NCBI GenBank assembly: GCA_016212215.1
Contig: JACRGV010000064.1
Location: 1-64,000 of the forward strand
DNA length: 64,000 nt
Direction of reading: 5' to 3'
Origin: Nitrospirota bacterium
Lineage (GTDB): Bacteria; Nitrospirota; 9FT-COMBO-42-15; HDB-SIOI813
Part shown: one piece after another, positions 7,572-26,957 of the stretch
How the letters are laid out: each line of letters begins with the position of its first letter
Position numbering within the stretch: position 1 is the stretch's first letter
Program-made: the position numbers and the translations under genes
Notes under the pieces: model-generated
What the model saw: only the letters and a program-made list of their open reading frames with translations
The model's database searches: none
Told to the model about the DNA's origin: nothing

Positions 7572-8201
7572 ATGGTTCGTAGTAAAAAATTATTTAAGAT
7601 TAAAGCAGCATTTTTTGCAGTAGTCCTCGTATCAGGGCTTTCATTCCTCTCGTCAAAGGTTTTTGCTCAGGCGACAGAGGGTGCGACAGCTCCTGCAACA
7701 GAGGAAGCAGCAGTGCCGCCTGCTCCGGTCGGTGACCCGGATACAGGAAGAAAGCTGTATACAGGGGAAATCCGGTTTACAAACGGTGGTCCGCCATGTA
7801 TTTCATGTCATGATGTAGGTTATGGTGCATTGGGCGGAGGGGCTTTAGGCCCAAATCTAATGCTCCCAAACGAGAAATATGGAGTTGGGCCTGCCCCGTC
7901 AAATCCACTTATCGCAGCAGCGTGGATTAACAGTACAGGAACTCCTGTCATGGGGGCAATCTTTTCAAAGAGGAATGTAACAGATGAAGAAGTTGAGAAT
8001 CTGAAGGCATTCTTCAAGTCATTGCCGGAGACCCCATCAAATAAGGCAGGGATATTTCTGGGTATCGGCTTTTTAGGATTTATAGGAATACTTATCTTCT
8101 TTGGCATTGTGTGGAGCAACCGCTATAGAAATCGTTGCGGCGGTGGTACTGCACATCAGGCTATTTGGAGAAATTACGGAGGGAAAGGAGGACAAAGATG
8201 A
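7572..8201 (+). CDS. Membrane-anchored monohaem cytochrome c of the nitrate reductase operon
   Basis: A 209-residue exported protein. The signal peptide (about 1-32) precedes an Ala/Pro-rich linker, a class I-like cytochrome domain with one haem site CISCH and a distal Met candidate in GTPVMGAIF, and a C-terminal membrane helix (about 160-182). Start is ATG after AAAGGAGGTG. It overlaps narG by four bases. A cytochrome gene ahead of narGHJI recalls Thermus narC, where it serves electron transfer between the quinone-side machinery and the enzyme. By analogy it would link NarI or the bc complex to periplasmic carriers (inference). The C-terminal tail (RNRCGGG...) is basic and cytoplasmic. Confidence 0.82.
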   Translation: MVRSKKLFKIKAAFFAVVLVSGLSFLSSKVFAQATEGATAPATEEAAVPPAPVGDPDTGRKLYTGEIRFTNGGPPCISCHDVGYGALGGGALGPNLMLPNEKYGVGPAPSNPLIAAAWINSTGTPVMGAIFSKRNVTDEEVENLKAFFKSLPETPSNKAGIFLGIGFLGFIGILIFFGIVWSNRYRNRCGGGTAHQAIWRNYGGKGGQR

Positions 8202-13449: not shown

Positions 13450-13452
13450 ATA

Positions 13453-14019
13453 ATGGAGACACTCGTGGGTAAAGACATTTATACTCAGCTCGCAAGCATG
13501 TTTGATTATCCTGGTGATATGGGTAAAATTGTCAGCAAGGTTGACGAATTGATAAATAATTTCAGCAGCATGGAAAAACTGCCGCCTGATGTGGTGAATT
13601 CTGTAAAAGAATTTAAGAAGGCGATTGTGAAATTACCTATAGATGAACTGCAGGTAATATACTCTTATACCTTCGAGATGTCTTCTGATTTTACACTCGA
13701 TATGGGTTCTCATATTTATGATGGTTTTAAAAGGTCGGATAATCTTGTCAACATAAAGACCATGTACAGGAGGTTTGAATTTCCTTTTGAGACATTGGGC
13801 AAGGGGGAGCTTCCGGACCACCTCCCCCTTGTACTCAGGTTTTTGGGTTTTGTGAAAGAAGAAGGGGTAAAAAGGGATTTTGAGAAGGATTTTCTTATAA
13901 AATGCCTTGAAAAAGTCTATAAAAATTTCGCAAAGAGACAGGATAACCCTTACCATCATGTTATCAACGCTGTTTATAAGATTATAGACAGGGATGTAAA
14001 GGAGGAGGCAAATAAATGA
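13453..14019 (+). CDS. narJ: Nitrate reductase assembly chaperone (NarJ/TorD family)
   Basis: A 188-residue, all-helical cytoplasmic protein in the narJ position between narH and narI. It shows NarJ-like features: LASMFDYPG near the N-terminus, the central YSYTFEMSSDFTLDMGSHI and DHLPLVLRFLGF, matching the DELPDHLP-LEF type motif of the family. It should hold apo-NarGH until the Mo cofactor is inserted. It is not part of the final enzyme. Start is three bases after the narH stop. Confidence 0.88.
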   Translation: METLVGKDIYTQLASMFDYPGDMGKIVSKVDELINNFSSMEKLPPDVVNSVKEFKKAIVKLPIDELQVIYSYTFEMSSDFTLDMGSHIYDGFKRSDNLVNIKTMYRRFEFPFETLGKGELPDHLPLVLRFLGFVKEEGVKRDFEKDFLIKCLEKVYKNFAKRQDNPYHHVINAVYKIIDRDVKEEANK

Positions 14020-14717
14020 TTAACAATATATTATTCGGTGCGTTTCCTTATGTATTCATTACGATATGCATCGTCGGACTGATATTCAGATACAGGACTA
14101 ACAGATACTCATGGTCGAGTCAGTCATCAGAATTTTTGGAAAACTCAGTCCTGTTCTATGGGTCGTTCCCATGGCATTATGGAATTATAACGATTCTTCT
14201 TGTTCATATTTTCGGGCTATTCTTTCCAAGAGGGATTCTTGCATGGAATGCCGTACCAGTAAGGCTTTACTTACTTGAGCTTTCCGGCCTTGCATTAGGA
14301 TTGCTTGCATTCTTCGGACTTCTCGTATTTACCTACAGGAGGCTTACTGACAACAGGGTAAAGGCAGTAACAACAGGATGGGATGTTATTACACTTATTG
14401 TTCTGTTAATACAGGTTGCAACAGGACTCCTGAATGCTATCCTGTACAGATGGGGTTCAAATTGGTATGCAGGAACAGCAGTGCCGTGGATGTGGTCAAT
14501 CTTCACATTCCAGCCTGATGCCGGCTATGTAGCTGGACTACGTTTGATTACAAAAGTGCATATCTTTAATGCAATGATATTCATTGGATTAATGCCGTTT
14601 ACAAGGCTTGCACATTTTGTGGTTATCAGGCCTTATGCATATCTATGGAGACCATATCAGCAGGTTAGATGGTATAACAGAAACCCAAAGACAGAGAACA
14701 TTGTACAGTATAAGTAA
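14016..14717 (+). CDS. narI: Nitrate reductase gamma subunit, dihaem cytochrome b
   Basis: A 233-residue inner-membrane protein with five membrane helices. The four haem-b ligands are in NarI spacing: His54 and His64 (10 apart, WHYGIITILLVH) and His182 and His200 (18 apart, KVHIFNAM...RLAH), matching E. coli His56/66/187/205. It oxidises quinol and passes electrons to NarH. Start ATG overlaps narJ by four bases and follows AAGGAGGAGG. Last gene of the nar operon; a strong terminator follows. Confidence 0.94.
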   Translation: MINNILFGAFPYVFITICIVGLIFRYRTNRYSWSSQSSEFLENSVLFYGSFPWHYGIITILLVHIFGLFFPRGILAWNAVPVRLYLLELSGLALGLLAFFGLLVFTYRRLTDNRVKAVTTGWDVITLIVLLIQVATGLLNAILYRWGSNWYAGTAVPWMWSIFTFQPDAGYVAGLRLITKVHIFNAMIFIGLMPFTRLAHFVVIRPYAYLWRPYQQVRWYNRNPKTENIVQYK

Positions 14718-14757
14718 ATTTAGTTGAAAGTTAGTATTTCATAGATGTATACAAAGA

Positions 14758-14797
14758 AGCGGGGGGTGTGGGATTAGGTTCCGCCCCCGCTTTTTTT
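14758..14797 (+). terminator. Rho-independent terminator of the nar operon
   Basis: AGCGGGGG pairs with CCCCCGCT across a 15-17 base loop and is followed by seven T residues. It lies 41 bp after narI. Confidence 0.88.
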
Positions 14798-14979
14798 AAA
14801 CAGTGTCCGTTACTAAGCATGAGCTTAGGAACGAATAAAAGAATAAAATTTGTTGCTAAACTGAGGCTTATTAATGAAGAGGAGAAGGGAAGAAAAGGGG
14901 GTGATAAAAACTAAGAAACACATATTATAAATTGTTTAAAAAATTAATTAAAGATACCTGAGGTTCTTGCATAAGTTTG

Positions 14980-15062
14980 TGTCATCCCCGAAATCTTTTA
15001 TCGGGGATATGATTTTCGGTCATAAAGCAATAGATTCCCGCTTAAAACATGCGGGAATGACA
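14980..15062. repeat. TGTCAT...ATGACA dispersed palindromic repeat
   Basis: The outer arms TGTCAT and ATGACA enclose two hairpins: ATCCCCG...CGGGGAT, and ATTCCCGC with GCGGGAAT. This type of element (TGTCATTCCCGC-like) is common as an intergenic repeat in many bacteria. It occupies the middle of the 480-bp spacer between the nar terminator and the second narK. Apart from it and the terminator I see no gene in 14800-15199. Confidence 0.7.
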
Positions 15063-15199
15063 TCGTTTTGGTGCTTTTGTAAGAGCTCACCAGATTGAAG
15101 CATTTGATGGAATCGCTTTAAAATACATGGGTGATAAATATACGCTGATCAAAATACAGATGTTCAATTTGAAGTTAATTATTGTAAGGAGTAAAAATT

Positions 15200-16837
15200 A
15201 TGTCATGGTTAAAAAAATGGGAACCTGAAGACCCACAGTTTTGGAAATCTGAAGGGAGTGGACGTGCATGGGGAACTCTTGCTGTTACTACATTCGGCTT
15301 AATGGCTTCATTTGCTACATGGTTTGTGATGAGTGCAGTTGTTGTCCGCCTACCTAATATAGGATTTAAATTTGATACTATGCAGCTCTTCTGGCTTGCG
15401 GCCATGCCGGGCCTTTCCGCAGGTATGATGAGAACGGTGCATGCATTTCTAATCCCGATTCTCGGCACAAGGACTACTGTAACAATAGCAAATTTTATTA
15501 AACTCATCCCAATGGTTTGGCTTGCTTACGCGGTTCAAAATCTTGAAACTCCATATATTCATTTTCTAATTATATCGTTTCTATGCGGCTTTGGCGGCGG
15601 GGACTTTTCATCATATATGCCATCTACCAGCCTGTTTTTCCCAAAGAGACTGCAGGGTACTGCCATGGGGCTACAAGCTGGAATCGGTAACTTCGGTGTG
15701 AGCCTGGTACAGTTCGTAACGCCATGGATAGTTACCTTTGGGATCATTGGTGCAGTCGGCGGACCGCAGCTATTTACCAAAGCAACTCCGGTTTTTGACG
15801 TAAAGATTGCGAAAGATGCCGGAGTCATCAAGGATGTCGTTGTTAAAAATGAGGCGCTTGCTAAATTCATAACGGTTGTAAAAAATCCTTCAGGCGGTGT
15901 CCAGGACGTAGTAATTACAGAGAGCGATTTAACAAAGGGTATGAAGGTTGAGATTAAGAAAAATGAGGCCGGAGTTATTACAGACTTAACGGTCAAGAAA
16001 ATCATTAAGAAGGATATGTGGGTGCAGAATGCGGCATTATGGTATGTGCCGTGGTTGATCATTGCAGGTATTATCAGCTTTATTTATTTAAAGAGCATAC
16101 CTATGAGAAAGGTATCTGTCGGTACGCTGGTAAAAAACATGACAGACAATAAACATGCATATTTCTGTGTATGGATATATGTAATGACATTCGGTTCGTT
16201 CGCGGGATTTTCAGCAGCATTTCCTCTTATGATAAAAACTATTTATGGTGCCATACATGGAATGGACCCTGCCCTCGCCCCTGACCCTCTGAAGTATGCC
16301 TTTTTAGGTCCGCTTATTGGATCTACTATCCGCTTCGCCGGTGGTCCATTATCCGACAAGTTTGGAGGGGCAATATTTACTATGGTATCAGGTGTAGGGT
16401 TGATATTAGGATGCCTTGCCCTGATTTTTGGCGGCTATCTTACACCAACAGATTTGAATATGTTTCCTGCCTTTGTCTGGATAATGCTCTGGATATTCCT
16501 TATGGCAGGCATCGGAAATTTCTCCACTTTCAGACAGTTCCCTATTGCGTATGCATTTAATCCGAGAATGGGTTCGGCGATACTTGGATGGACAGGGGCT
16601 TGGGCTGCTTATGGACCGTTCATATTCTCTTCACTGATCGGTGCTTCTATAGCTGCTTATGGCTCAGCAAAGGCATTTTTCTGGGGTGCGTTGATATTCT
16701 ACGTTATAGGTAGTTTACTCAACTGGGTATATTACACTAAGCCAGGCGCAGAGAGAGGTGACTGGGGCGTTGGAAAGACCTGGTGGCACAAGTTATCCGA
16801 GTCTGAGAGAGAGAGGTATATAGCCGAGAATCCATAA
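15200..16837 (+). CDS. narK: Nitrate/nitrite transporter NarK2-type, with large inserted loop
   Basis: A 545-residue MFS nitrate/nitrite porter. It carries the signature glycine/serine-rich helices (FLCGFGGGDFSSYMPSTSLF, LQAGIGNFGVSLVQ) and both substrate arginines (SAGMMRTVHAF, GSTIRFAGGPLSD). Between helices it has an extra hydrophilic segment of about 80 residues (about 193-275, VFDVKIAKDAGVIKDVVVKN... to KKDMW) absent from the shorter transporter at 5703. NarK proteins of this larger type are often nitrate/nitrite exchangers next to narGHJI (known for the family). Start: ATG after AAGGAG. It has its own terminator, so it is a separate transcript from narGHJI. Confidence 0.93.
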   Translation: MSWLKKWEPEDPQFWKSEGSGRAWGTLAVTTFGLMASFATWFVMSAVVVRLPNIGFKFDTMQLFWLAAMPGLSAGMMRTVHAFLIPILGTRTTVTIANFIKLIPMVWLAYAVQNLETPYIHFLIISFLCGFGGGDFSSYMPSTSLFFPKRLQGTAMGLQAGIGNFGVSLVQFVTPWIVTFGIIGAVGGPQLFTKATPVFDVKIAKDAGVIKDVVVKNEALAKFITVVKNPSGGVQDVVITESDLTKGMKVEIKKNEAGVITDLTVKKIIKKDMWVQNAALWYVPWLIIAGIISFIYLKSIPMRKVSVGTLVKNMTDNKHAYFCVWIYVMTFGSFAGFSAAFPLMIKTIYGAIHGMDPALAPDPLKYAFLGPLIGSTIRFAGGPLSDKFGGAIFTMVSGVGLILGCLALIFGGYLTPTDLNMFPAFVWIMLWIFLMAGIGNFSTFRQFPIAYAFNPRMGSAILGWTGAWAAYGPFIFSSLIGASIAAYGSAKAFFWGALIFYVIGSLLNWVYYTKPGAERGDWGVGKTWWHKLSESERERYIAENP

Positions 16838-16889
16838 GCATCAGAAGGCTGTTTAAGATGTAGATAAAGGATGTTTGTTGTTGTTTTAA

Positions 16890-16926
16890 TAAGGGGACAG
16901 AGATAGTTTCTGTTCCCTTATTTTTT
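16890..16926 (+). terminator. Rho-independent terminator of the second narK
   Basis: TAAGGGGACAGA pairs with TCTGTTCCCTTA (one mismatch) over a seven-base loop and is followed by TTTTTT. Confidence 0.85.
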
Positions 16927-16929
16927 GCC

Positions 16930-16959
16930 TTGACAAACAGGTTTGAGTAGCTTTATCAT
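16930..16959 (+). promoter_or_regulatory. Sigma-70-type promoter for the DUF2769-like gene
   Basis: A perfect -35 TTGACA (16930-16935), 18-base spacer and -10 TATCAT (five of six). It lies directly behind the narK2 terminator and 82 bp before the next start codon. Confidence 0.6.
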
Positions 16960-17041
16960 ACGTATATCAATTTGATAACACACCTTTGCGATAGCTATCT
17001 GATTATAATAACTGTTAACAATTAACAAGAGGAGGTGGGTT

Positions 17042-17353
17042 ATGGGAAACATTCATGAGTTTGATCCTTTTCATGTAGAGGATATGGGAAAGGAGGAGTA
17101 TGCAGCAAAGCAGGATTATGTAACAGGCAAGTGTTTATGTACAACGTGCCCTACTTATGTAAAGAGTGATGACCCGATAGGTTTTTGTTTTCCTATGGTA
17201 GGTACAAGTAAGACTATCAAGTGGGAGAAAGATTGTCTCTGTGAGACATGTCCGGTCTACGCTGAGTATGACCTGACTCACACTTTCTATTGCACGCGTT
17301 GTTCACAGGTATGTCAGGCGTATAAGGCAGAGATAGGTTCCGGACACGAATAA
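17042..17353 (+). CDS. Small cysteine-rich protein, DUF2769-like
   Basis: A 103-residue cytoplasmic protein with two C-x-C-x2-CP-x-Y motifs (CLCTTCPTY, CLCETCPVY) followed by C-x2-C-x3-C (CTRCSQVC) and a lone Cys in GFCFP. The motif resembles DUF2769, a family known mainly from archaea and anaerobes and of unknown function. Eleven cysteines could bind zinc or an iron-sulfur cluster. A strong AGAGGAGGTG ribosome site precedes the ATG. It starts a probable run of co-directional genes with the DUF2299-like and hemerythrin genes beside the nitrate cluster. Confidence 0.75.
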   Translation: MGNIHEFDPFHVEDMGKEEYAAKQDYVTGKCLCTTCPTYVKSDDPIGFCFPMVGTSKTIKWEKDCLCETCPVYAEYDLTHTFYCTRCSQVCQAYKAEIGSGHE

Positions 17354-17402
17354 AAAAAATATTAATTAATAATTTAAAATTAGGAATGGGAGGAATAAAG
17401 TT

Positions 17403-17921
17403 TTGGAATATACAACAATTGAAGAGGCACAGAATGTCATATTAAAGTGGCTAAAGGAAAACCATCACAATATGGATGAGGTAAAGGATAACAACTCAAA
17501 TTTTCACTATGAACTTGATTATCCGCTCGGTACACAGAAGAAACAGCGTGTAATCCAACCTAAGGATTACCCGTCATTAGTATTGTTGTTGAATGGTGTA
17601 TCAATTGCACCTGAGCACATGGAAAAAATAAAGGCGATGTCAGAAGAAGAACGGGATAGCTTGTATAATGAGATAAGGAAGGACCTGATATTCTCAGATT
17701 GCAGTTATGACATGAACCTGGATGAGTCCGGTATAGTAAGGCAGGTACAGTTTTCTTATGAATTCTATTTTGACAGCCTTACAAAGACGCAGTTGTACAG
17801 AGGCCTTCTCCTTAATTACAGGACACTCTTATATTTCGTGACAAAATTTAATGACAAATTCGGTATCCCTGTAATTGATAATGCAGAACTGCTTCCTGAA
17901 GGGGATGAGCACGCAAGGTAG
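17403..17921 (+). CDS. DUF2299-like conserved protein
   Basis: A 172-residue soluble protein with no signal or membrane helix. Pattern (IEEAQNVILKWLKE..., FHYELDYP, YDMNLDESGIVRQVQFSYEFYFDSLTKT) resembles DUF2299, an uncharacterised family often seen in methanogens, with a YbjN/secretion-chaperone-like layout. Start is a TTG at 17403 with GGGAGGAA seven bases upstream; no ATG fits. It is 49 bp after the DUF2769-like gene and probably co-transcribed. No function can be assigned. Confidence 0.65.
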   Translation: MEYTTIEEAQNVILKWLKENHHNMDEVKDNNSNFHYELDYPLGTQKKQRVIQPKDYPSLVLLLNGVSIAPEHMEKIKAMSEEERDSLYNEIRKDLIFSDCSYDMNLDESGIVRQVQFSYEFYFDSLTKTQLYRGLLLNYRTLLYFVTKFNDKFGIPVIDNAELLPEGDEHAR

Positions 17922-17990
17922 TAAAGGCAGTGATTAGTGGATAGTGATTAGTTAGAAGTGAACAGAAGTAAGGAACAAAGCAAATAATTT

Positions 17991-18080
17991 CCCCCTCACC
18001 CGGACCCTCCTCCCGCCAGGGGAGAGGGTACATAGAGTATTCCCCCTCCCTTGACGGGAGGGGGGTAGGGGGAGGGTGAG
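17991..18080. repeat. Family A palindromic repeat, two adjacent hairpins
   Basis: CCCCCTCACCC...CCCGCCAGGGGAGAGGG is followed by TTCCCCCTCCCTTGACGGGA and its complement GGGGGTAGGGGGAGGGTGAG. The second half is nearly identical to 45041-45080. It fills the spacer before the hemerythrin gene, after a short family-D-like stretch (17936-17970). Confidence 0.8.
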
Positions 18081-18128
18081 CGATGGAAAATTTCGCAAGA
18101 AGCATCATAACAGGAGGGGACAAAAACC

Positions 18129-18971
18129 ATGGCAGAGCGGTTTCTTGAGGTAAAATATAAATGTTTACATCAGTCTTGCCAGATTAAGAAGTGCAAACAG
18201 GGTGTCCTGCATATAGATGAATCTCTGTTTAATCAGCTCTCGGAATCTTTTGAGGATAAAAATCTTTTCAAAAGTCCGCGCGGCTATTGCCGTCTTGGCT
18301 TTACACAGACACTGCAAGTTGTAGATGTAAAAGACGCAGGCATAGAGGATGAACCGCAGATAGAACTATCAGCAGAGGAAAAAGAGTTGAAGCGGCTTAC
18401 TGACCCAATGGAGATACTGAAAGAAGAACACAATGTTGTATTGAAAAAACTTGAACTCATCGAGAACATGATTAAGCGGAGAGATTTAGACGGCTTATGG
18501 GTTACTGTATCAGAAGTTGAGGATGATATCGCCCTCCACTCTTTAGAGAAGGAAGAGGGAATTTTATTCCCAATGCTTGAAAAGGCGTCATCCCTCACAT
18601 CCGGTGAAATCTCTATAATGAAGGAAGACCATAGGGAGCTTGAGGCCCTTCTCCATTCTATTAAAGATGGACTAAGAGAAGGGGATATCCTTGATGGAGT
18701 TTTTGGTTCTGCCCTGGCAAATTTACGGAATCACATACGTAAAGAGGATGAGGAGTTTTTTGAGGTGATAGATCAGTGTCTTGATGCAGAAGGTAAGAAG
18801 CGTCTCCTTGAAGAGATGGCAAAGATAGAGAAAAATCACAAAAAGATCGAGCATGGGGAGAGATGTGCACTTGTACACAGCCACGGAGAGCCTGATGCAA
18901 GACGTGAGCAATATAATGAGGCAGTTGCAGCAGCTAAATTAGCCGGAGCTAAAGATGATAGCTGTTGTTAA
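18129..18971 (+). CDS. Hemerythrin (HHE) domain protein with cysteine-rich ends
   Basis: A 280-residue cytoplasmic protein. An N-terminal 60 residues with Cys-x-x-x-Cys spacing (KCLHQSCQIKKCKQG, GYC) may bind metal. The hemerythrin-like four-helix domain spans about 92-215 with diiron ligand patterns ILKEEHNVV, ALHSLEKEEGILFP, MKEDHRELEAL and LRNHIRKEDEEFF. The C-terminus ends ...DDSCC. Such proteins sense or scavenge O2 or nitric oxide, and the place beside nitrate reduction makes NO defence plausible (inference). Start ATG is preceded by ACAGGAGGGG. Confidence 0.85.
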   Translation: MAERFLEVKYKCLHQSCQIKKCKQGVLHIDESLFNQLSESFEDKNLFKSPRGYCRLGFTQTLQVVDVKDAGIEDEPQIELSAEEKELKRLTDPMEILKEEHNVVLKKLELIENMIKRRDLDGLWVTVSEVEDDIALHSLEKEEGILFPMLEKASSLTSGEISIMKEDHRELEALLHSIKDGLREGDILDGVFGSALANLRNHIRKEDEEFFEVIDQCLDAEGKKRLLEEMAKIEKNHKKIEHGERCALVHSHGEPDARREQYNEAVAAAKLAGAKDDSCC

Positions 18972-19024
18972 TAAAAAAAGGATTCAAGGGGTCGAGGGTT
19001 CAAGGATTCAAGTGGTCAAGTGAA

Positions 19025-19852
19025 ATGAAGGGGAAATTACTATTTATTCTTGTTGGTATAATAGTCTTTTTATCTGTTATCAATTCTGATGCTGCAACTA
19101 TTAATGTACCTGATAATTTTAAGACCATCCATGATGCAGTAGAGAACTCCCAGTCCGGTGATACCATAATAGTCAGGAATGGGAATTACCATGAAAATAT
19201 AGTTATCTCTAAGCCCCTTACTTTACAATCAGAAAAAGGCGCTGATGTAACAGTCCTCAAACCGTCAAATACATCAGAACCGGTCATTAAGGTGATGGAT
19301 ACCAATAATGTATCCATTATAGGTTTTACTGCCACTGGATCTGCTATATCAGGAATATATCTATACAAAACGACTAACTCAAAACTCCTCGAAAATAAGA
19401 GTATAGAGAATAGAAATGGTATATTCCTTTATTCCTCTGATAATAACTCTTTAACAGGTAATGAAACCAAATCAAATGACCAGACAGGGATATATCTTGA
19501 GGCTTCAAATGGAAATGTTGTTGAAAGGAATGAGGCTGATTCCAACAGAGAAAAGGGGATATTCCTTATTTCTGCCAACTCTAATAAAGTGACGGACAAC
19601 AGTGCAAGCCTGAATGAATGGAATGGAATTACCCTTTGGTCTGCTAATAATAATACGATTAAGGGCAACAAGGTTTACAGAAATACTTATGGAATCATTA
19701 TGAGCAATTCCACCGGTAATGATGTATCTGAAAACCCTACATGGACTAACTTCTATATTATCCTGCCTATTCTGCTGATATACCTCGGTGTATTACTGTA
19801 TTGGGTGGAGAGGAGAATATTTTTAATTTTCTACCGTGAAGAGCATGTTTGA
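19025..19852 (+). CDS. NosD-like periplasmic right-handed beta-helix protein
   Basis: A 275-residue exported protein. The signal peptide (1-23, MKGKLLFILVGIIVFLSV) precedes parallel beta-helix repeats (INVPDNFKTIHDAVENSQSG, then N-rich coils such as SDNNSLTGNETK, ANSNKVTDNSA, ANNNTIKGNKV) and a C-terminal membrane helix (about 240-260). This is the NosD/copper-binding PbH1 type, but no nos genes are near, so a role in N2O reductase maturation is not supported here. ATG 19025 gives a proper signal peptide; the frame is open 20 codons upstream through a repeat-like stretch that overlaps the hemerythrin stop. Confidence 0.8.
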   Translation: MKGKLLFILVGIIVFLSVINSDAATINVPDNFKTIHDAVENSQSGDTIIVRNGNYHENIVISKPLTLQSEKGADVTVLKPSNTSEPVIKVMDTNNVSIIGFTATGSAISGIYLYKTTNSKLLENKSIENRNGIFLYSSDNNSLTGNETKSNDQTGIYLEASNGNVVERNEADSNREKGIFLISANSNKVTDNSASLNEWNGITLWSANNNTIKGNKVYRNTYGIIMSNSTGNDVSENPTWTNFYIILPILLIYLGVLLYWVERRIFLIFYREEHV

Positions 19853-20201
19853 AACAAATATGATCATTGCCTCTGCCGGCCTTGTCCTTGCAACAATGAG
19901 CTTCATCTCAGGATTGCAGGTTGTAAAAAGGGATAAGCTGCTTGGTGCAATGTCGGCAACAATGCACAGGGTGAACGGCTATCTGTCATGTATTGCTTAT
20001 GTAATACTGGCAACCATGTCCCTAAGCTCTATAGGCGGCTTAAAAATGTGGCCAGTCATCGGCTGGATATTTGGATTCGTATTAATAGGCGGAAAGATAT
20101 TGTGTGTAAGAAATGTGAAGTTTTACAAATACGGCAGCAGACTAGGGCTTTTTCTATTTATTGCATGGCTGGTGATAATGTATAAACATATCGTTACATA
20201 G
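19845..20201 (+). CDS. Small four-helix membrane protein
   Basis: A 118-residue inner-membrane protein with four predicted helices (NMIIASAGLVLATMSFISG, YLSCIAYVILATMSLSSIG, WPVIGWIFGFVLIGG, LGLFLFIAWLVIMY). His residues in MHRVNGY and near the C-terminus (YKHIVT) would suit a b-haem protein, but no family is recognised. It overlaps the end of the NosD-like gene by eight bases, so translation is probably coupled. A GTG at 19836 is an alternative start. Confidence 0.65.
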   Translation: MFETNMIIASAGLVLATMSFISGLQVVKRDKLLGAMSATMHRVNGYLSCIAYVILATMSLSSIGGLKMWPVIGWIFGFVLIGGKILCVRNVKFYKYGSRLGLFLFIAWLVIMYKHIVT

Positions 20202-20211
20202 CTTCAGTTTT

Positions 20212-20292
20212 CTCTTCTTTCTTACTTCTTACTTCTTGCATCTTGCTTCTAACTTCTGCTCACAGCTTACAGCTTACTGCTTACAGCTCACT
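20212..20292. repeat. Family D repeat between convergent genes
   Basis: CTTACTTCTT, CTTGCATCTTGCTTC and then CAGCTTACAGCTTACTGCTT units separate two convergent genes and reach into the Hsp70 stop region. Confidence 0.7.
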
Positions 20293-23149
20293 GAAGCCTT
20301 ATCCCCGTATCCACCTCCCTATGGTTCTTTCCATACTTTATCTTTATCTGTCCTGAATCATTGAGTGTGAATGTTACATGAACCTCTTCATCTATAGTTT
20401 CATCAAGCTGCAGTGTGATAATCTTCAGTTCTTTTAAGGCCATATCCTCTTCAGGTTTCATCACCTGTTTTATAAATTCAACGCCCCCCTGTTTTTCCCA
20501 TCTCCTTGTTATGTTTTTTTCAGGGATTTCAAATAACTCAAGGAACATCTCATTCTGTTCGCCTACTGTCCGGGCCGGATTTATCCTGAATGTTTTTTCA
20601 AATGGATATGCCTCCCCTTTTTCAAATATAATCTCATAAGCGGGCGGTACTTGTTTGTCCTCTGTCTGATATTTGATGGCATAAGCCAGGCCTAAATGTT
20701 TGTCACTAATATTCCTTGATGCAAACATAGCCGCCCCCATTGCAACTGCTGAAAATGGGCTGTGGTTATAGATTGAGTTATTCTCCTCAAGCCTTGGAAA
20801 TAGAGAGGATACCTTCTCTTTAAAAGATGGTATCTGGGATGAACCGCCGGTAAGCAGTATTGCCTCTATCTTATCTTTCTTAATACCAACCTTCTCCGCC
20901 TTCCACAGGATATACGATATTGACTGATCTACGCCTTTATAAAAGTCGTGATTGTTCAGTACCTCTTCAAAGACCTTTCTGTTAATCTTACATATATCAG
21001 TACCGTTCCAGGTAAACACTGCTTCGTTTTTGTCGGATAGCGATATCTTAATGTCTTCTGCCTTTTTTATTAATTCAGGGGAAGGTTTATCTCCGCCATG
21101 TCCTAGCTTTTCACCGAGGTATCCTGCAAGCCATATATCAATATCATGACCGCCGAGCATCTTGGATCTGTCCGGTTTAGCAATAACATGGACATTATTT
21201 ATGTTAAGCCGCAGTATCATGGTATCGAGGGTACTCCCGCCAAAATCTATAATCAATACTATCTTATCTTTCTGGTCCGCCATCTGATAACCGATGGCCG
21301 CTGCAAGGGGCTCTTCAAGTATCTCAATCTCTGTCCCCTTCATTATCCTGCCCAGTATCTCTCTTACTGACCGTTTATATCCAGGGAATCCGATTGGCAC
21401 GGTTGTGTAAAGTTTGTCTGATATTCCGCCTGAGAACCCTGATAGCATTGTCATCCATTTTGATGTAGTGTATACCTCATCACGGAGATGCTGATGCAGT
21501 ATTGTAAGAAACTTCTCCATGTATTTTTTGGATTCCTTCTGATTTTCCAGAAGCATCTTCTTAAAGTTTATTATTACATCATTATCCGAGGTATTAACTG
21601 CCGCAGCGCCTATTATATCTGATTTGGGGCTTAGTATTGATGGGACAATAGAGACACCGTTAAGCTGTCTTGAGATTGATTTCAGAGTGACGTACTCCGG
21701 CTGGACACCTTTTTTCTTCCTCATAATAACCGTATTGGTAGCCCCAATGTCTATTGATATGCAGGACTTTTCTTCAACCTTAACGGACATATTTTCAATT
21801 GCCTGCTCTCTGCGGGAGGTGAAGTGCTCATGACTGAAGACAGGTTTGAGAATCTCTTTCCCATGAAAACGTTTTTTTAGTTCTTCAAGCCGGTCAACGA
21901 TTGTACTGACTGCATCTCTTAAATCTTTGGGTTGAATCCATATATGGGTATATGGTTTAAGGATGTCTATAAGACGTATATCATTTAACATCGGCCCGAT
22001 TATTTCAAGCTCCTTTGCAAGCATTTCCCCGTACTTTAGTTTTGTATTCTTTGACTTTGTCGAGTCCTTGATAACCCCTTTATCCTCAGCAACAAGTATG
22101 AAGTCAATTATCTCCATCGGCGAGAGTTCTTTTATCATCTTTGATATTGAATAGAATTCAAGTATATTTTTCAGGGCATACTGTATCTGTGGGAAAAAGT
22201 CAGGATTTTTAGCAAAGTCTTTCAGCATCTCTATAAGGGCGTGGATCTTTGCCAGCGGGGAAACAATCTCAGCAGATGCCTTGAATGCCTCCTTCACGGT
22301 CTCTTTATATAATGGATATAATTCGTGTGTTGAACGAACCTCATCTGCGATATAGCAAAGTGCATATTTCCTGTAATAAGGTTCATCAATAGTAGTAGCC
22401 GCAGCAATGGCGAGTTTTATAGCATCTTTATATAAGGTAAGGAACTCTCCTGTCTTAGGTATCTCCTTTGCTATTCCAAGCAGTGTGTATTGCCTGTAGA
22501 AGGCATAATCACAGCTCTTGGGGAGAGTCCTTGCTATTTCATCCAGTAGTTTCCTGTCATAATAAGTTGCCTGGGATACCTGATTTATTGTAGTTGAAAG
22601 ATTAAGTGCATGTTTAAATGCATTAAGGCGCAGGGGATTAAGCTCGTGTGTTTTCGGGAGGTCAGTTGCAATAGTGAGAAGTGCGTGTATCCGGTGCTGT
22701 GAATCCTTTATCTCATTTGCTGCCTTTATTGCGTTTGATATTGCCTGAACATAGAGCGGGTGCAGGGATTGTTTTTCCTGGATTTCATCCGCTATCTTCA
22801 GCAGTGAGTCCTTCCTTGTCTTTGGGTCTTCGATATTATTTGATGCAAGTACCGCATCTTTCATCACAGCGGCATAAAGGGAAGAGAACTCAGGATCACG
22901 CGGTATTTCCCCTGCTATCACAAGGAGCAGTGCCTTCCTGTCAGAAGGGGATTTTACACTGTTTGCAAGGCTGACACATAACTGGTATGCGGACATAGAC
23001 TCATAAGTCTTGGGTATCTCCTTTATACAATTGATACAGCGTACAAGGATCCTCTTTTTGTCATGAATATCAGTAATATTTTTTACAGCATTAAAAGTAT
23101 CTCTAATGCACGATATTTCTTCATGAGGTGTGGTTTCTGTTGTACTCAT
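20288..23149 (-). CDS. Hsp70-type ATPase with N-terminal helical repeats
   Basis: A 953-residue cytoplasmic protein. Residues 1-330 hold about seven helical repeats of roughly 41 residues with recurring IxDPxxRxxALxxIAxEIPKT and LYxxAIxxAIxAA blocks. Residues about 330-450 form a helical linker. From 460 an Hsp70/actin-fold ATPase follows: phosphate-1 loop IDIGATNT (Asp467), EEPLAAAIGY, phosphate-2 IIDFGGSTLD, MLGGHDID and adenosine motif LLTGGSSQIPSF. A short beta-like tail ends the protein. Classical DnaK substrate-lid sequences are not seen. It is the last gene of the AAA+/Ycf35 operon. Start follows GGAGA. Function unknown: a repeat-scaffold chaperone is the best description. Confidence 0.85.
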   Translation of the reverse strand: MSTTETTPHEEISCIRDTFNAVKNITDIHDKKRILVRCINCIKEIPKTYESMSAYQLCVSLANSVKSPSDRKALLLVIAGEIPRDPEFSSLYAAVMKDAVLASNNIEDPKTRKDSLLKIADEIQEKQSLHPLYVQAISNAIKAANEIKDSQHRIHALLTIATDLPKTHELNPLRLNAFKHALNLSTTINQVSQATYYDRKLLDEIARTLPKSCDYAFYRQYTLLGIAKEIPKTGEFLTLYKDAIKLAIAAATTIDEPYYRKYALCYIADEVRSTHELYPLYKETVKEAFKASAEIVSPLAKIHALIEMLKDFAKNPDFFPQIQYALKNILEFYSISKMIKELSPMEIIDFILVAEDKGVIKDSTKSKNTKLKYGEMLAKELEIIGPMLNDIRLIDILKPYTHIWIQPKDLRDAVSTIVDRLEELKKRFHGKEILKPVFSHEHFTSRREQAIENMSVKVEEKSCISIDIGATNTVIMRKKKGVQPEYVTLKSISRQLNGVSIVPSILSPKSDIIGAAAVNTSDNDVIINFKKMLLENQKESKKYMEKFLTILHQHLRDEVYTTSKWMTMLSGFSGGISDKLYTTVPIGFPGYKRSVREILGRIMKGTEIEILEEPLAAAIGYQMADQKDKIVLIIDFGGSTLDTMILRLNINNVHVIAKPDRSKMLGGHDIDIWLAGYLGEKLGHGGDKPSPELIKKAEDIKISLSDKNEAVFTWNGTDICKINRKVFEEVLNNHDFYKGVDQSISYILWKAEKVGIKKDKIEAILLTGGSSQIPSFKEKVSSLFPRLEENNSIYNHSPFSAVAMGAAMFASRNISDKHLGLAYAIKYQTEDKQVPPAYEIIFEKGEAYPFEKTFRINPARTVGEQNEMFLELFEIPEKNITRRWEKQGGVEFIKQVMKPEEDMALKELKIITLQLDETIDEEVHVTFTLNDSGQIKIKYGKNHREVDTGIRLQ

Positions 23150-23164
23150 TTAAAAATCTCCATA

Positions 23165-23299
23165 GCTCACCCCCACCCTGACCCTCCCCCCTCAAGGGGG
23201 AGGGAATAATCTTAGTTCCCTCTTCTCTCAAGGGAAGGGGAATTAACATTAGCCGCCCTCTCCCCTTGCGGGAGAGGGTCAGGGTGAGGGGGGCTTTGC
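23165..23299. repeat. Family A repeat cluster inside the operon spacer
   Basis: CTCACCCCCACCCTGACCCTCC with CTCAAGGGGGAGGG, a middle CCCTCTTCTCTCAAGGGAAGG unit, and CCCTCTCCCCTTGCGGGAGAGGG followed by TCAGGGTGAGG. It spans nearly the whole gap between the radical SAM stop and the Hsp70 start. Confidence 0.85.
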
Positions 23300-23311
23300 C
23301 TTAACAGCGGA

Positions 23312-24019
23312 TCAAGCTGCCTTATATATATCAACCCTGCTGAAGCCTGTTTCCTTTATAGTCCCATCCCTGCTGATAATTATTTCAACCTTTGCCGGCA
23401 TATAAAAATCCTTTTCCTGATAGCGGTTTGATAAGAATAATAATCTCTGATTTGTAGAACCCCTCGCAAGGAGGGTCGGTTCTTTCTGTTCATCTTTGTA
23501 TGCACCGTCTATGAGGACGTCAATATGGTTTAAAACAGGCTGGTGCTCACCCCCACCCTTACCCTCCCCCCTCAAGGGGGAGGAAATAAACTTAGCACCC
23601 TCTACCCAATCTATAAAGTTTGGGAGAGGTTTTTCCGTTTTCCCCTCCCCTTGCGGGAGGGAATTAAGGGGAGGGGGGGTATAGCCTTTAAGTTCTTCAT
23701 AGTTAAACCCTGTATAAACCACTGTTGACAACCCATATTCCTCTTTTGCCGCTTTCAAAAGCTGTAACAATCCCTTAGCCTGTAGAAATGGCTCGCCGCC
23801 GCTGACAGTGATACCCTCTGTATCCGGCAGGAGGAAGTTCTTCAGGATATCTTCCGCAGAGTATAATTGATTTTCTTCAAACGAATGGGTAGCAGGATTA
23901 AAACAACCCAAGCATTTCCGGCTGCACCCCTGAAAGAATACAACCAATCTCTTTCCCGGGCCGTTCACCCTTGAACAGGGTATGATTGAATGTACATTGA
24001 TTATATTATGACGACCCAT
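23312..24019 (-). CDS. NrdG-like radical SAM protein with in-frame repeat insertion
   Basis: A 235-residue protein of the short radical SAM activase type (NrdG/single 4Fe-4S domain). It has the SAM cluster motif C-x3-C-x2-C (CSRKCLGC), the TVSGGEPFLQ glycine motif and VLIDGAY. About 45 residues between YEELKGY and QPVLNHIDVLIDG are a translated family A repeat (LPQGEG, SPLRGEGKGGGEH), so the ancestral protein was about 190 residues. The reading frame is kept. It lies 14 bp after the DUF2997 gene. The likely job is generating a radical or modifying a partner of the cluster; no glycyl radical enzyme is nearby. Confidence 0.85.
   Translation of the reverse strand: MGRHNIINVHSIIPCSRVNGPGKRLVVFFQGCSRKCLGCFNPATHSFEENQLYSAEDILKNFLLPDTEGITVSGGEPFLQAKGLLQLLKAAKEEYGLSTVVYTGFNYEELKGYTPPPLNSLPQGEGKTEKPLPNFIDWVEGAKFISSPLRGEGKGGGEHQPVLNHIDVLIDGAYKDEQKEPTLLARGSTNQRLLFLSNRYQEKDFYMPAKVEIIISRDGTIKETGFSRVDIYKAA
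23547..23682. repeat. Family A repeat inserted in the radical SAM gene
   Basis: Two palindromic units, CTCACCCCCACCCTTACCC with CTCAAGGGGGAGG and CCCCTCCCCTTGCGGGAGGG, lie within the coding frame without causing a stop. They encode a Gly/Pro/Glu-rich loop not expected in the family. Confidence 0.85.
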
Positions 24020-24032
24020 CTGACACCATGCT

Positions 24033-24215
24033 TTATTCTTTTATCTTCAGCCTCTCATAAGCATAAGCCTCTGTCTCATCCTTTACATCAAACTTTTCTA
24101 CCTTACCAAGCACCTTCTTTAAATGCTCTGCGACCTCAGTGCAGTCATTAAAGATAGAAGAATCAATCTCCACCTTACCGTCTTTAGTAATCTTTATCTT
24201 TATCTGCCGATCCAT
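24033..24215 (-). CDS. Small DUF2997-like protein
   Basis: A 60-residue protein, MDRQIKIKITKDGKVEIDSS followed by a helix CTEVAEHLKKVLG and VEKFDVKDE. The two-strand start with I-x-I-x3-G-x-V-x-x and the central cysteine-containing helix match DUF2997. That family is typically encoded next to DUF1257 (Ycf35) and a Ycf46-type ATPase, as found here. Function unknown. It is 60 bp after the DUF1257 gene, a family D repeat filling the gap. Confidence 0.72.
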   Translation of the reverse strand: MDRQIKIKITKDGKVEIDSSIFNDCTEVAEHLKKVLGKVEKFDVKDETEAYAYERLKIKE

Positions 24216-24216
24216 G

Positions 24217-24270
24217 TTCTTCTCTTTCTTGCGTCTTACGTCTAACGTCTTACTTCTTGCCTCTTGTCTC
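24217..24270. repeat. Family D repeat between DUF1257 and DUF2997 genes
   Basis: CTTGCGTCTTACGTCTAACGT and CTTACTTCTTGCCTCTTGTC fill the gap in this operon. Confidence 0.65.
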
Positions 24271-24274
24271 TAAA

Positions 24275-24616
24275 TTATCCTTTCAACATTATCACAATCT
24301 CCCCTGCCTGTTCCGTCTCCCTTGCTATCTCAAAATCAAGCGGGAGGTTATCTTTGATAGATTCATACGCATAAAGCTGTTTTAGCCTGTCTGTAATCTC
24401 TCTTGCCGGTCGTGAGATTCCTGCTATTTCAAAATTATTGGTCTCTTTTTCTTTTGTTATATTAACAATCTCACCTTCCCTGTTTACCTCTATCCGCTCT
24501 TTCTTCTCATTTACTATAAACTTTGTAATCTCCCCCCGCTTCTGCATCTCTGAGAGTGCTGCTACTATATATTTTTTATTGGATAGCTCAGTTTTAATTA
24601 CACAATAAAACGACAT
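24275..24616 (-). CDS. Ycf35-like protein (DUF1257)
   Basis: A 113-residue cytoplasmic protein. The start MSFYCVIKTELSNKKYIVAA resembles the Ycf35/DUF1257 start (MSHFT-IKT-I-D...LKAAL), and the end ITDRLKQLYAYESIKDN plus FEIARETEQAGEIVIMLKG matches the conserved Y-AY-I and GEIxIxL region of cyanobacterial and plastid Ycf35. The middle is shorter and more diverged. Function of the family is unknown; it co-occurs with Ycf46 and DUF2997. It begins 55 bp after the ATPase gene, the gap again being family D repeat. Confidence 0.72.
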   Translation of the reverse strand: MSFYCVIKTELSNKKYIVAALSEMQKRGEITKFIVNEKKERIEVNREGEIVNITKEKETNNFEIAGISRPAREITDRLKQLYAYESIKDNLPLDFEIARETEQAGEIVIMLKG

Positions 24617-24625
24617 TCACCGTCC

Positions 24626-24668
24626 CCTTCTTTCTTACTTCTAACCTCTTACTTCTAACTTCTTCCTC
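24626..24668. repeat. Family D repeat between AAA+ and DUF1257 genes
   Basis: CTTTCTTACTTCTAACC and TCTTACTTCTAACTTCTTCC lie within the operon spacer. Confidence 0.65.
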
Positions 24669-24671
24669 TGT

Positions 24672-26807
24672 TTACGCTATGCTATTATATTTAAAAAACT
24701 CCGCCAATGCCTCGCCATTCATTAATATATCTCTCTCAAGCGATTTTATAAGTTGTAAAATTACCTCTTTGTTCCTTGAGAGGATTGATTCAGTTTCTGT
24801 TCTTGCATTATCCAGAATCCTCTGGACATCCTCAAATATCTCTCTGCCTGACATCAGTGCAATATCCTGCAAAGCAATGAGGCTTGCATGTTTTATGGTA
24901 TCCCCGAAACCATATTCTACTACCATCTTTCGCGAGATTTTTGTGGCCTCAAGGAGGTCCTGAGATGCGCCGACGGTCTTTAAATCAGAACCGTGATATT
25001 CTTCCTCTGAGACCATACCTCCGAGAATGACGCCGATCTCTTTCTGTAGGTCAGCCTTTGTAAAAAGGTTATCCATTGCCTCACCTGTAGGTATGAATGC
25101 AGTAAAGTCCTTGTAACTATCTATGCTGACGAAAACAGGTGTTTTTTTGAAGTGATGCCACATCATCAATGTATGACCTGCCTCGTGAACCGCAATGTTC
25201 CTCTTTTCCTGGTCACCAAGGTTCTCGACCCTTTGCATAAAGAGTGAACGTGATGCGGGCCTTGCACGTCTGTAACTCCATGTCCTTAATTCATCAATCT
25301 CTTCCTTCTTCAAGACAGATAGCGGGGTGATATTTCTTATTGATTTAAGAAGTGTTGCCTGTGTCAGGTTAAGAGATGACAGTCCGTCAATCATTGTCTC
25401 AACTTCCTCATCTCTCCTGCCCTGGTGAAGCATATTGAAGGTGGTCACAATGGAATCCTTCACAGCCTGTTCTATCTCAGCACCTGTGTACCCTTGACTG
25501 TTCTGGGCAAGCTCTACCATATTCAGGCGGTATATGCTCTGCCCTCTGCTCTCAAGATGAATTTTGAATATCTCTTCCCTCTCCTCAACACTCGGCAGAT
25601 CTACGAAGAAGACCTCATCATACCTCCCCTTTCTCCATAACTCAGGGGGTAGGTTTCTCGGATTATTTGCAGTGGCAATAACAAATACAGGTTTTACCTT
25701 TTCCTGCAGCCATGTAATAAACGTACCAAAGACCCTGAGCTGGGTACCGGAATCACCCTGAAATCCGCTGACCCCCCCAAATGCCTTGTCTATCTCATCA
25801 ATCCAGAGTATGCAGGGGCTTACTGCTTCTGCCAACTGGATGGCCCTGCGGATGTTTTTCTCTGATTCACCGACAGTAGAACCGAACAGCTTCCCTACAT
25901 CAAGCCTCAGAAGGGGGAGGTTCCATATCCCTGCCAATGCCTTACAGCAGAGACTCTTTCCGGAACCCGGCACCCCGATAAGAAGAAGTCCCCTCGGTGT
26001 ATCAAGGCCAAGTGTATCAACCTTCTCCTTACTCAGACGGAAAACATGCTCCCTTTCAATAAACCACCTCTTTATCTCATCAAGACCGCCTATATGTTCT
26101 ATGGTTTCTTTATGTGTATAGTAATCCAGTATCTTCTGTTTTTTTATGATCTGCTGTTTCTCTTCCTGAATGAATGATATGCAGTCCTCGTTTAACTGAC
26201 CCTTATTAAGGCTTATGGCCTTTCTCACAACCCTTCTGATATTGTCCATGGAGAGGCCCTGCAGTGACTTATATAATATTGCCCTTTGAGAGGGGTACCA
26301 CTTCTCAGGGATCATCCTTGCAAAGGTTGATGAAACCATCTCTTCAATCTCATCATACTCAGGTAAAGAGAGTTCAATGACTATGATGTCTTCCTCTAAT
26401 TCCGGCGGTATCTCAGTCAGTGTCGGTGAAAGGATGCAGATGGTATTCATGGAGTTTCGCTCATCAATAATGGTTGGGATGTCCCTGAACTTTCTCAGAA
26501 ACTCATGGGAGTTGAAGTATCCTGAAATGTCTTTTAATAAGAAGAGATTGCTTTCAGACTCGCTTTTAACAATCTTTTCCTCAATAGTAGTAAGTACCTT
26601 TTCCCTTCCAAGAGGGTCCCATTTCTTTTTCTCACCGCTGTAAAGCCCCCTTGACACAGACCATGCCCAGTACTTGAAGTCTATGGTCTTACACAACTCC
26701 TCCATGATCTTCTCAACCCTTCGTTCCTCAAAGGATACAAGCCACAAAACAGGATACTTCGCCTCAATATGGATTTTGATTTCATTCTGGAATTCTTTAG
26801 TATTCAT
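24672..26807 (-). CDS. Ycf46-type AAA+ ATPase fused to an FtsH-like M41 metallopeptidase
   Basis: A 711-residue cytoplasmic protein with no membrane helix. Residues 1-220 match the degenerate N-terminal ATPase-like part of Ycf46 (EAKYPVLWLVSFEERRVEKI). Residues 240-500 are an active AAA+ domain: Walker A GVPGSGKS (Lys284), the Ycf46-typical DVGKLFGSTVGESEKNIRRA, Walker B CILWIDEIDKAFGG, and FVIATANNPRNLPPELWRKG. Residues 530-700 resemble peptidase M41: zinc motif HEAGH (His541, Glu542, His545) and third ligand Asp617 in GASQDLLEATKI, as in FtsH. It is the first gene of the operon with a strong GGGAGGAG site. A soluble ATP-dependent protease is the natural inference. Confidence 0.88.
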   Translation of the reverse strand: MNTKEFQNEIKIHIEAKYPVLWLVSFEERRVEKIMEELCKTIDFKYWAWSVSRGLYSGEKKKWDPLGREKVLTTIEEKIVKSESESNLFLLKDISGYFNSHEFLRKFRDIPTIIDERNSMNTICILSPTLTEIPPELEEDIIVIELSLPEYDEIEEMVSSTFARMIPEKWYPSQRAILYKSLQGLSMDNIRRVVRKAISLNKGQLNEDCISFIQEEKQQIIKKQKILDYYTHKETIEHIGGLDEIKRWFIEREHVFRLSKEKVDTLGLDTPRGLLLIGVPGSGKSLCCKALAGIWNLPLLRLDVGKLFGSTVGESEKNIRRAIQLAEAVSPCILWIDEIDKAFGGVSGFQGDSGTQLRVFGTFITWLQEKVKPVFVIATANNPRNLPPELWRKGRYDEVFFVDLPSVEEREEIFKIHLESRGQSIYRLNMVELAQNSQGYTGAEIEQAVKDSIVTTFNMLHQGRRDEEVETMIDGLSSLNLTQATLLKSIRNITPLSVLKKEEIDELRTWSYRRARPASRSLFMQRVENLGDQEKRNIAVHEAGHTLMMWHHFKKTPVFVSIDSYKDFTAFIPTGEAMDNLFTKADLQKEIGVILGGMVSEEEYHGSDLKTVGASQDLLEATKISRKMVVEYGFGDTIKHASLIALQDIALMSGREIFEDVQRILDNARTETESILSRNKEVILQLIKSLERDILMNGEALAEFFKYNSIA

Positions 26808-26832: not shown

Positions 26833-26862
26833 AGTATAACACAATGTTAATGCCATATTCAA
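26833..26862 (-). promoter_or_regulatory. Promoter of the AAA+/Ycf35/Hsp70 operon
   Basis: On the minus strand, TTGAAT, an 18-base spacer and TATACT (five of six), with an upstream TG making an extended -10 (TGTTATACT). It sits 26 bp before the ATPase start codon, just downstream of the radical SAM terminator. Confidence 0.5.
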
Positions 26863-26880
26863 ACACTGTTTTGGAAATAA

Positions 26881-26922
26881 AAAGGGGTAAAGTTTATTGT
26901 TTAAATAGACTTTACCCCTTTC
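26881..26922 (-). terminator. Rho-independent terminator of the leftward radical SAM gene
   Basis: The perfect arms AAAGGGGTAAAGT and ACTTTACCCCTTT enclose a 15-base loop. On the minus strand the stem is followed by TTTTTATTT. It separates the radical SAM gene from the AAA+ operon. Confidence 0.85.
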
Positions 26923-26957
26923 TTAAAAGCACGGTAAATAGTTACGTTTAACGTCTT

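Follow-up and report, generated by a model that had tools for sequence, protein, structure and literature searches.

What task could bring together, in one operon, relatives of the plastid genes ycf46 and ycf35, a metallopeptidase, a radical S-adenosylmethionine (SAM) enzyme and an Hsp70 chaperone? The question is raised by a locus on contig JACRGV010000064.1 of a Nitrospirota bacterium (assembly GCA_016212215.1), of which positions 1-64,000 of the forward strand, a stretch of 64,000 nucleotides hereafter called the window, were analysed. Open reading frame calling confirmed five minus-strand genes spanning 20288-26807, which the initial annotation had taken as one unit (Table 1); they are transcribed in the order Ycf46-M41, Ycf35-like, DUF2997, radical SAM and solenoid-Hsp70, with intergenic gaps of 55, 59, 13 and 162 bp. 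We read this operon, with a probability of about 0.5, as a dedicated chaperone-unfoldase-protease system that is linked to iron-sulfur (Fe-S) and redox chemistry and has a respiratory metalloenzyme as its likely client. Its parts are of known kinds and the closest cluster, that of the cyanobacteria, is homologous but uncharacterised, while the five-gene combination is undescribed in the searched literature.

The first protein of the operon is comprised of a Ycf46-like region (residues 1 to about 519), which includes the AAA domain (274-403), and of an M41 domain (531-690). Both Pfam matches lie above cut-off (AAA, 2.9e-30; Peptidase_M41, 2.4e-21, 76.9 bits versus a cut-off of 29.9), and residues 5-520 are colinear with cyanobacterial and planctomycete Ycf46 at 38-41% identity, a family membership that the tree supports as well. 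Among 37 AAA-M41 sequences, the Walker A and B motifs, the Arg, the HExxH motif and the Asp of GASxD are kept in every sequence that covers them (HExxH in 37/37, the third-ligand Asp in 35/35), which bears out the initial description of a Ycf46-type AAA+ ATPase with an M41-like HEAGH domain. As in FtsH, the AAA+ ATPase is N-terminal to an M41 domain having HExxH and a third Asp ligand; unlike in FtsH, the AAA domain is of the Ycf46 type and is preceded by the Ycf46 N-terminal region. No hydrophobic or transmembrane segment was found in the protein, whose highest 19-residue Kyte-Doolittle mean is 1.27, and it is therefore, unlike FtsH, not membrane-anchored; its score against the FtsH equivalog TIGR01241 is 166.6 bits, versus a cut-off of 600. 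In the tree the M41-bearing forms make up a single clade (support 100/100), with the Nitrospirota sequences nested among deltaproteobacterial ones.

The last protein, of 953 residues, belongs to the Hsp70 family (Pfam HSP70, 2.2e-21, 76.2 bits versus a cut-off of 20.6), with phosphate and adenosine motifs that are conserved in 24-25 sequences. Its AlphaFold2 model (mean pLDDT 74.8) predicts an alpha-solenoid over residues 1-430, an Hsp70 ATPase domain at about 460-810 and a beta substrate domain at about 820-951, in agreement with the Hsp70 ATPase with helical repeats that had been read from the sequence; no C-terminal helices, and hence no helical lid, were found in this model. The top Foldseek matches are DnaK structures, lid-deleted DnaK included (E 2e-17). 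The protein thus shares with DnaK and HscA the Hsp70 ATPase and the beta substrate-binding domain, and differs from them by its N-terminal solenoid of about 430 residues, by the missing lid and by scores far under the DnaK and HscA equivalog cut-offs (92.7 and 70.5 bits versus 620-822). For the window protein and two relatives the top NCBIfam score, below cut-off, is that of the Fe-S chaperone HscA.

Both small proteins are distant members of their families. The 113-residue protein has no match to Pfam DUF1257 (PF06868), and 4 of its 22 orthologues do (best E 0.019); profile-profile alignment by hhalign joins its family to a DUF1257/Ycf35 set at 95.4%, end to end over 109/114 columns, versus 0.7% for the crossed control, and its gene adjoins those of Ycf46 and DUF2997, a neighbourhood of Ycf35 type. 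AlphaFold2 predicts for it an alpha+beta fold (pLDDT 91.6) for which there is no PDB match at E<0.001 by fold or at E<1 by profile; the best fold matches (E 0.04, TM about 0.45-0.5; phosphoglucomutase C-domains and RnlA) were too weak to be accepted as relatives of solved structure. The 60-residue protein scores 23.2 bits against Pfam DUF2997 (PF11211), just below the cut-off of 24.1, and the same weak match is present in 20/21 orthologues; the hhalign match of its family to DUF2997 proteins from other phyla reaches 96.9%, with 0.5% for the crossed control. Cysteine C25 is invariant in 21/21 orthologues, as is G13, and the same cysteine is found in 9/9 DUF2997 proteins of other phyla. Profile searches for a relative of solved structure retrieved none that was convincing. 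The Ycf35-like and DUF2997-like identities first proposed are accordingly supported as distant homology at the profile-profile level, where matches were found for both.

The fourth protein is a NrdG-like radical SAM enzyme, as initially annotated, with Pfam matches above cut-off (Fer4_12, 8.9e-33; Radical_SAM, 1.5e-8, 35.4 versus 29.5 bits) and a CX3CX2C motif at residues 32-39 that is kept in 29/29 sequences, no other cysteine being invariant. It resembles NrdG in this motif, in the size of its relatives (about 187 residues) and in an RGSxNQ motif. It is not assigned to NrdG itself, because its score against TIGR02491 (110.6 bits) is below the cut-off of 126.1 and NrdD is absent from the genome; its gene, unlike that of NrdG, lies among chaperone and protease genes. 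Activation of a glycyl-radical enzyme was rejected as its role, the only such enzyme of the genome having its own activase gene nearby and NrdD being absent. The window copy carries, by alignment, an in-frame insertion of about 43-48 residues that is missing in the relatives of about 187 residues. This insertion is a G-rich palindromic REPIN/MITE-like repeat, CCCTCCCCCTTGAGGGGGGAGGGT (window 23561-23690), which recurs between the radical SAM and Hsp70 genes (23181-23290) and at 32825-32848, giving three matches in the window versus none expected by chance.

The gene content and order of the operon are firm: all five genes were found, in the same order and on the same strand, in 26/26 other loci with enough contig, and loci ended by a contig edge carry operon genes as far as that edge. 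This neighbourhood survey, in which the carriers are Nitrospirota and metagenome-assembled genomes (MAGs) filed as Deltaproteobacteria, confirmed the expected co-occurrence without exception, and showed no relative with the Hsp70 and radical SAM genes unlinked. One MAG (G009) has two operon copies (L026 and L028), in one of which the AAA gene is interrupted by a stop and the radical SAM gene is split, reflecting either decay or an assembly error.

Such strict conservation of all five genes and of their order argues against an anti-phage or other conflict system, a reading that is suggested by the resemblance of the AAA domain to the IetA/IteA anti-phage ATPases and by the occurrence of AAA+, FtsH-like and Hsp70 themes in conflict systems (PMC7159879). 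The resemblance to IetA does not, however, extend beyond the AAA domain and scores far under the cut-off, and we found no effector, no variable gene and no PADLOC protein matching the small components. We consider this explanation very improbable. PADLOC and NCBIfam matches were only to generic AAA or radical SAM domains; the operon lacks the MoxR-vWA core of the systems in PMC7159879, and that paper does not mention ycf46.

The module formed by Ycf46, Ycf35 and DUF2997 extends beyond the M41-bearing operons, and its clustering in other bacteria, which had been stated in the initial annotation, was recovered in planctomycete and desulfobacterial loci. A Deferrisomatales genome encodes Ycf46-DUF1257-DUF2997 without M41, with genes for a HEAT-repeat protein and, separately, for an Hsp70-like protein downstream. 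A survey of that phylum covered 297 genomes, 22 of them with a DUF1257 protein, and 20 regions were examined with Pfam checks, yielding three desulfobacterial architectures without M41: type A, Ycf46-Ycf35-DUF2997-HEAT-Hsp70, with HEAT and Hsp70 as separate genes; type B, HEAT-Hsp70-Ycf46-Ycf35-DUF2997; and type C, NrdG-like radical SAM, FGE-like, Ycf35, Ycf46 and DUF2997, then Hsp70 where the contig reaches. The Ycf46 core is therefore accompanied by an Hsp70 with a helical-repeat partner in the M41-bearing operons as well as in types A and B, a firm linkage across architectures; in type C the Hsp70 was seen and the repeat partner was not. Planctomycetes have a PflX-like radical SAM gene (named from its motif pattern, no NCBIfam cut-off being reached), a small gene, Ycf46, a DUF1257-like gene and DUF2997, so that radical SAM genes accompany the Ycf46 core in three lineages. 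The 500-residue Ycf46 proteins of the window's own phylum stand alone and were set aside as a source of context.

Several of these loci carry further genes. Type B loci L160, L162, L164, L167, L168 and L171 continue with MtrC-like multihaem cytochromes and a conserved 465-residue protein without Pfam match. In type C loci L169 (1997-6853), L166 and L172, the gene for the FGE/sulfatase-modifying-factor-like protein (PF03781, 1.5e-49 in L169) separates the NrdG-like radical SAM gene from Ycf35-Ycf46-DUF2997-Hsp70. The planctomycete Ycf46-DUF1257-DUF2997 operons (L069, L070, L071, L084, L090 and L098) have zinc-ribbon, TPR and PilT-like genes downstream, and several of them have the PflX-like radical SAM gene and a gene for a protein of about 100 residues without Pfam match upstream.

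The closest known cluster is cyanobacterial. In Synechocystis the [4Fe-4S] ferredoxin gene fed7 belongs to a tricistronic operon, the cluster DUF2997-ycf35-fed7 being conserved; Fed7 has a DnaJ-domain protein as a binding partner, and cells that have lost Fed7 are less tolerant of oxidative, metal and salt stress and of iron limitation (PMC4284462). Two DnaJ-like proteins of Chlamydomonas, CDJ3 and CDJ4, bind a [4Fe-4S] cluster and interact with the chloroplast HSP70B (PMC6006212), and a DnaJ-Fer fusion with a Fer part of cyanobacterial origin has been described (PMC3564930). In red algae, ycf35 and ycf46 are among four plastid genes whose presence tracks habitat, a pattern for which the authors suggest iron limitation, arguing from the heme oxygenase gene pbsA (PMC5940233). 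The Fed7-DnaJ literature is an independent line that connects Ycf35-DUF2997 with both the Hsp70 system and Fe-S chemistry. The cyanobacterial cluster, together with Ycf46 and with the red-algal plastid genes, resembles the operon in its homologous Ycf46 (about 40% over residues 1-520), DUF1257 and DUF2997, in having an Fe-S redox protein as partner and in the link from Fed7 to DnaJ (PMC4284462); it differs in that its Ycf46 lacks M41, in that no Hsp70 is part of the cluster as published, and in that Fed7 takes the place of the radical SAM enzyme, while the window Ycf35 is too diverged for the Pfam model. No function for Ycf46, DUF1257 or DUF2997 was given in the literature found, where Ycf46 appears only in plastid inventories and stress transcriptomes.

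In a second alternative, the radical SAM enzyme does the main work of the operon by modifying DUF2997 or Ycf35 (by a glycyl radical, a thioether or otherwise), with the AAA-M41 protein and the Hsp70 serving maturation or turnover of the product. The enzyme is activase-like, with the three CX3CX2C cysteines alone invariant; the genome leaves it no obvious substrate; radical SAM genes recur in three lineages; and the DUF2997 gene, encoding one invariant cysteine, is located directly upstream of it. However, types A and B keep Ycf35-DUF2997 without a linked radical SAM gene, cyanobacteria have a ferredoxin instead, and Ycf35 is predicted as a stable fold in which, by reading, there is no glycyl-radical motif. 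We regard this alternative as unlikely.

What is known of the biochemistry of Hsp70, AAA+ and M41 proteins makes it likely that the operon is a chaperone-unfoldase-protease system, and we infer the following scheme, in which the proteins would act as a physical complex. The solenoid-Hsp70 would capture a client in the cytoplasm and hand it over to the Ycf46-M41 AAA+ ring, which would either remodel the client or feed it to the M41 chamber to be degraded. Ycf35 and DUF2997 may jointly serve as an adaptor or gate of the ring, and the radical SAM enzyme, standing where cyanobacteria have Fed7, may together with the invariant DUF2997 cysteine provide an Fe-S or redox input or a modification. The client would probably be a cofactor-rich respiratory enzyme, and in Nitrospirota the neighbouring nitrate reductase NarGHI, or Fe-S proteins damaged during nitrate respiration, is the best but unproven candidate. 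Such a scheme follows the logic expected from ClpB/DnaK-type bi-chaperone and AAA+ protease networks, in which Hsp70 passes clients to an AAA+ ring, but the AAA+ family is another one, the protease is fused, and Ycf35, DUF2997 and the radical SAM enzyme have no counterpart there. The core of the initial proposal, an undescribed quality-control or maturation unit, is well supported: the five genes stay together wherever a relative's locus allows a judgement, and the active-site motifs are preserved (37 AAA-M41, 29 radical SAM and 24-25 Hsp70 sequences); the modification, the metalloprotein target and the joint physical action are unproven.

The candidate client comes from the linkage of the operon to nitrate reductase (nar) genes, which as such is firm. 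Members of the nar cluster adjoin the operon in seven loci other than the window (8 with it) and in two orientations: convergent to the operon in the window, L024, L026 and L027, and upstream on the same strand in L023, L029, L063 and L067; in L023 and L067 fewer than 10 bp separate the two. Among 396 Nitrospirota genomes, 11 have a NarG at least 74% identical to that of the window, and all but one of these 11 also have the operon (operon x NarG table 10/3/1/382, Fisher p 1.3e-16, not corrected for phylogeny); the three operon carriers without this NarG are 70-78% complete. The corresponding operon x nar table for the class of genome G044 is 34/12/5/12 (p = 0.003, likewise not corrected for phylogeny). 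The hemerythrin of the nar block shows a weak relationship to RIC/YtfE, an Fe-S repair protein. Together with the Fed7-DnaJ link (PMC4284462), the narGHJI linkage lends circumstantial support to the idea of a metalloprotein target. The DUF2769, DUF2299, hemerythrin and NosD-like genes (window 17042-19852) are kept in the nar cluster across several loci.

The operon could instead be a general-stress chaperone-protease unit, with nar merely carried along on a respiratory island that was moved horizontally. The nesting of the Nitrospirota M41 forms among deltaproteobacterial ones would fit such a history, in most deltaproteobacterial carriers the nar genes are located at another chromosomal site, and the other architectures lie beside multihaem cytochromes or beside nothing in particular. 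On the other hand, nar and the operon stay neighbours in two orientations, with the near-contiguous same-strand arrangement of L023 and L067, and the co-occurrence holds in the class of G044 too. We find this explanation rather unlikely. Several observations nevertheless weigh against a respiratory quality-control system: nar is missing in 12/46 operon carriers of the class of G044 (partly incomplete MAGs) and is not adjacent to the operon in most deltaproteobacterial genomes; a single joint transfer may explain much of the Nitrospirota co-occurrence, because in the tree the M41 forms of that phylum branch together from within the deltaproteobacterial ones; neither a J-domain nor a GrpE gene lies within the operon; and Ycf46 need not work with Hsp70, because it often stands alone, as in loci of the window's own phylum.

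To our knowledge, no function has been assigned to ycf35 or ycf46 in the decades in which they have been listed among the genes of algal plastids and cyanobacteria. The finding of their homologues in one operon with genes for an Hsp70, a protease and a radical SAM protein, and of Hsp70 linkage in three further architectures, provides a testable Fe-S-linked chaperone hypothesis for these genes. More tentatively, Ycf46-Ycf35-DUF2997 could possibly be the conserved core of an Hsp70-coupled AAA+ system, widespread but so far unrecognised, for the upkeep of redox and Fe-S enzymes of respiration or photosynthesis, with swappable Fe-S inputs (Fed7, NrdG-like, PflX-like) and outputs (a remodelling AAA+ or an AAA+-M41 protein) and with a new radical SAM reaction on the client or on DUF2997. 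If true, the system would include a soluble M41 protease on a non-FtsH AAA+ motor and would bring radical SAM chemistry into protein quality control; we know of no described case of either.

Table 1. Features of the five-gene operon and its surroundings, in window coordinates.
Feature	Position	Strand	Size and basis
Ycf46-type AAA+ ATPase fused to M41 zinc metallopeptidase	24672..26807	-	711 aa; Pfam, identity, motifs, tree
Ycf35/DUF1257-like small protein	24275..24616	-	113 aa; hhalign, AlphaFold2
DUF2997 protein with single invariant cysteine C25	24033..24215	-	60 aa; weak Pfam match, hhalign
NrdG-like radical SAM enzyme	23312..24019	-	235 aa; Fer4_12, Radical_SAM, TIGR02491, Cys motif
Alpha-solenoid fused to Hsp70 ATPase and beta substrate domain	20288..23149	-	953 aa; HSP70, AlphaFold2, Foldseek
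Candidate sigma-70 promoter TTGAAT-18-TATACT	26833..26862	-	9/12 match, TG before -10
Hairpin then T-run, intrinsic-terminator-like, between tes and operon	26875..26923	-	fold
narG-narH-narJ-like-narI-narK-DUF2769-DUF2299-hemerythrin-NosD-like-121 aa cluster	8135..20201	+	convergent; NCBIfam, Pfam, adjacency elsewhere

Downstream, the operon faces the plus-strand nar block, which ends at 20201 and contains the convergent gene that had been noted at this border. Of the terminator and promoter initially placed upstream, the terminator is matched by an intrinsic-terminator-like hairpin, 26870-26930 folding at -21.6 kcal/mol (z -5.7) with a T-run, whereas a promoter is unproven, since matches of this type are no more frequent in the region than in shuffled sequence (17 versus 14.9 +/- 4.1). 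The conserved flanks of the deltaproteobacterial operons (an H+-pyrophosphatase, a VTT protein and a TPR protein) are apparently lineage-specific and were set aside. Elsewhere in the window's genome, a gas-vesicle (gvp-like) cluster (L040, G000:C82, 1788-11572), identified by reading and not by profile, holds a double AAA protein similar to the AAA domain of the operon. Upstream of the operon lies a gene for the tetraether lipid synthase Tes (26958-28664; NF045702, 557 bits, over cut-off), and tes also precedes the operon in L021 and L022.

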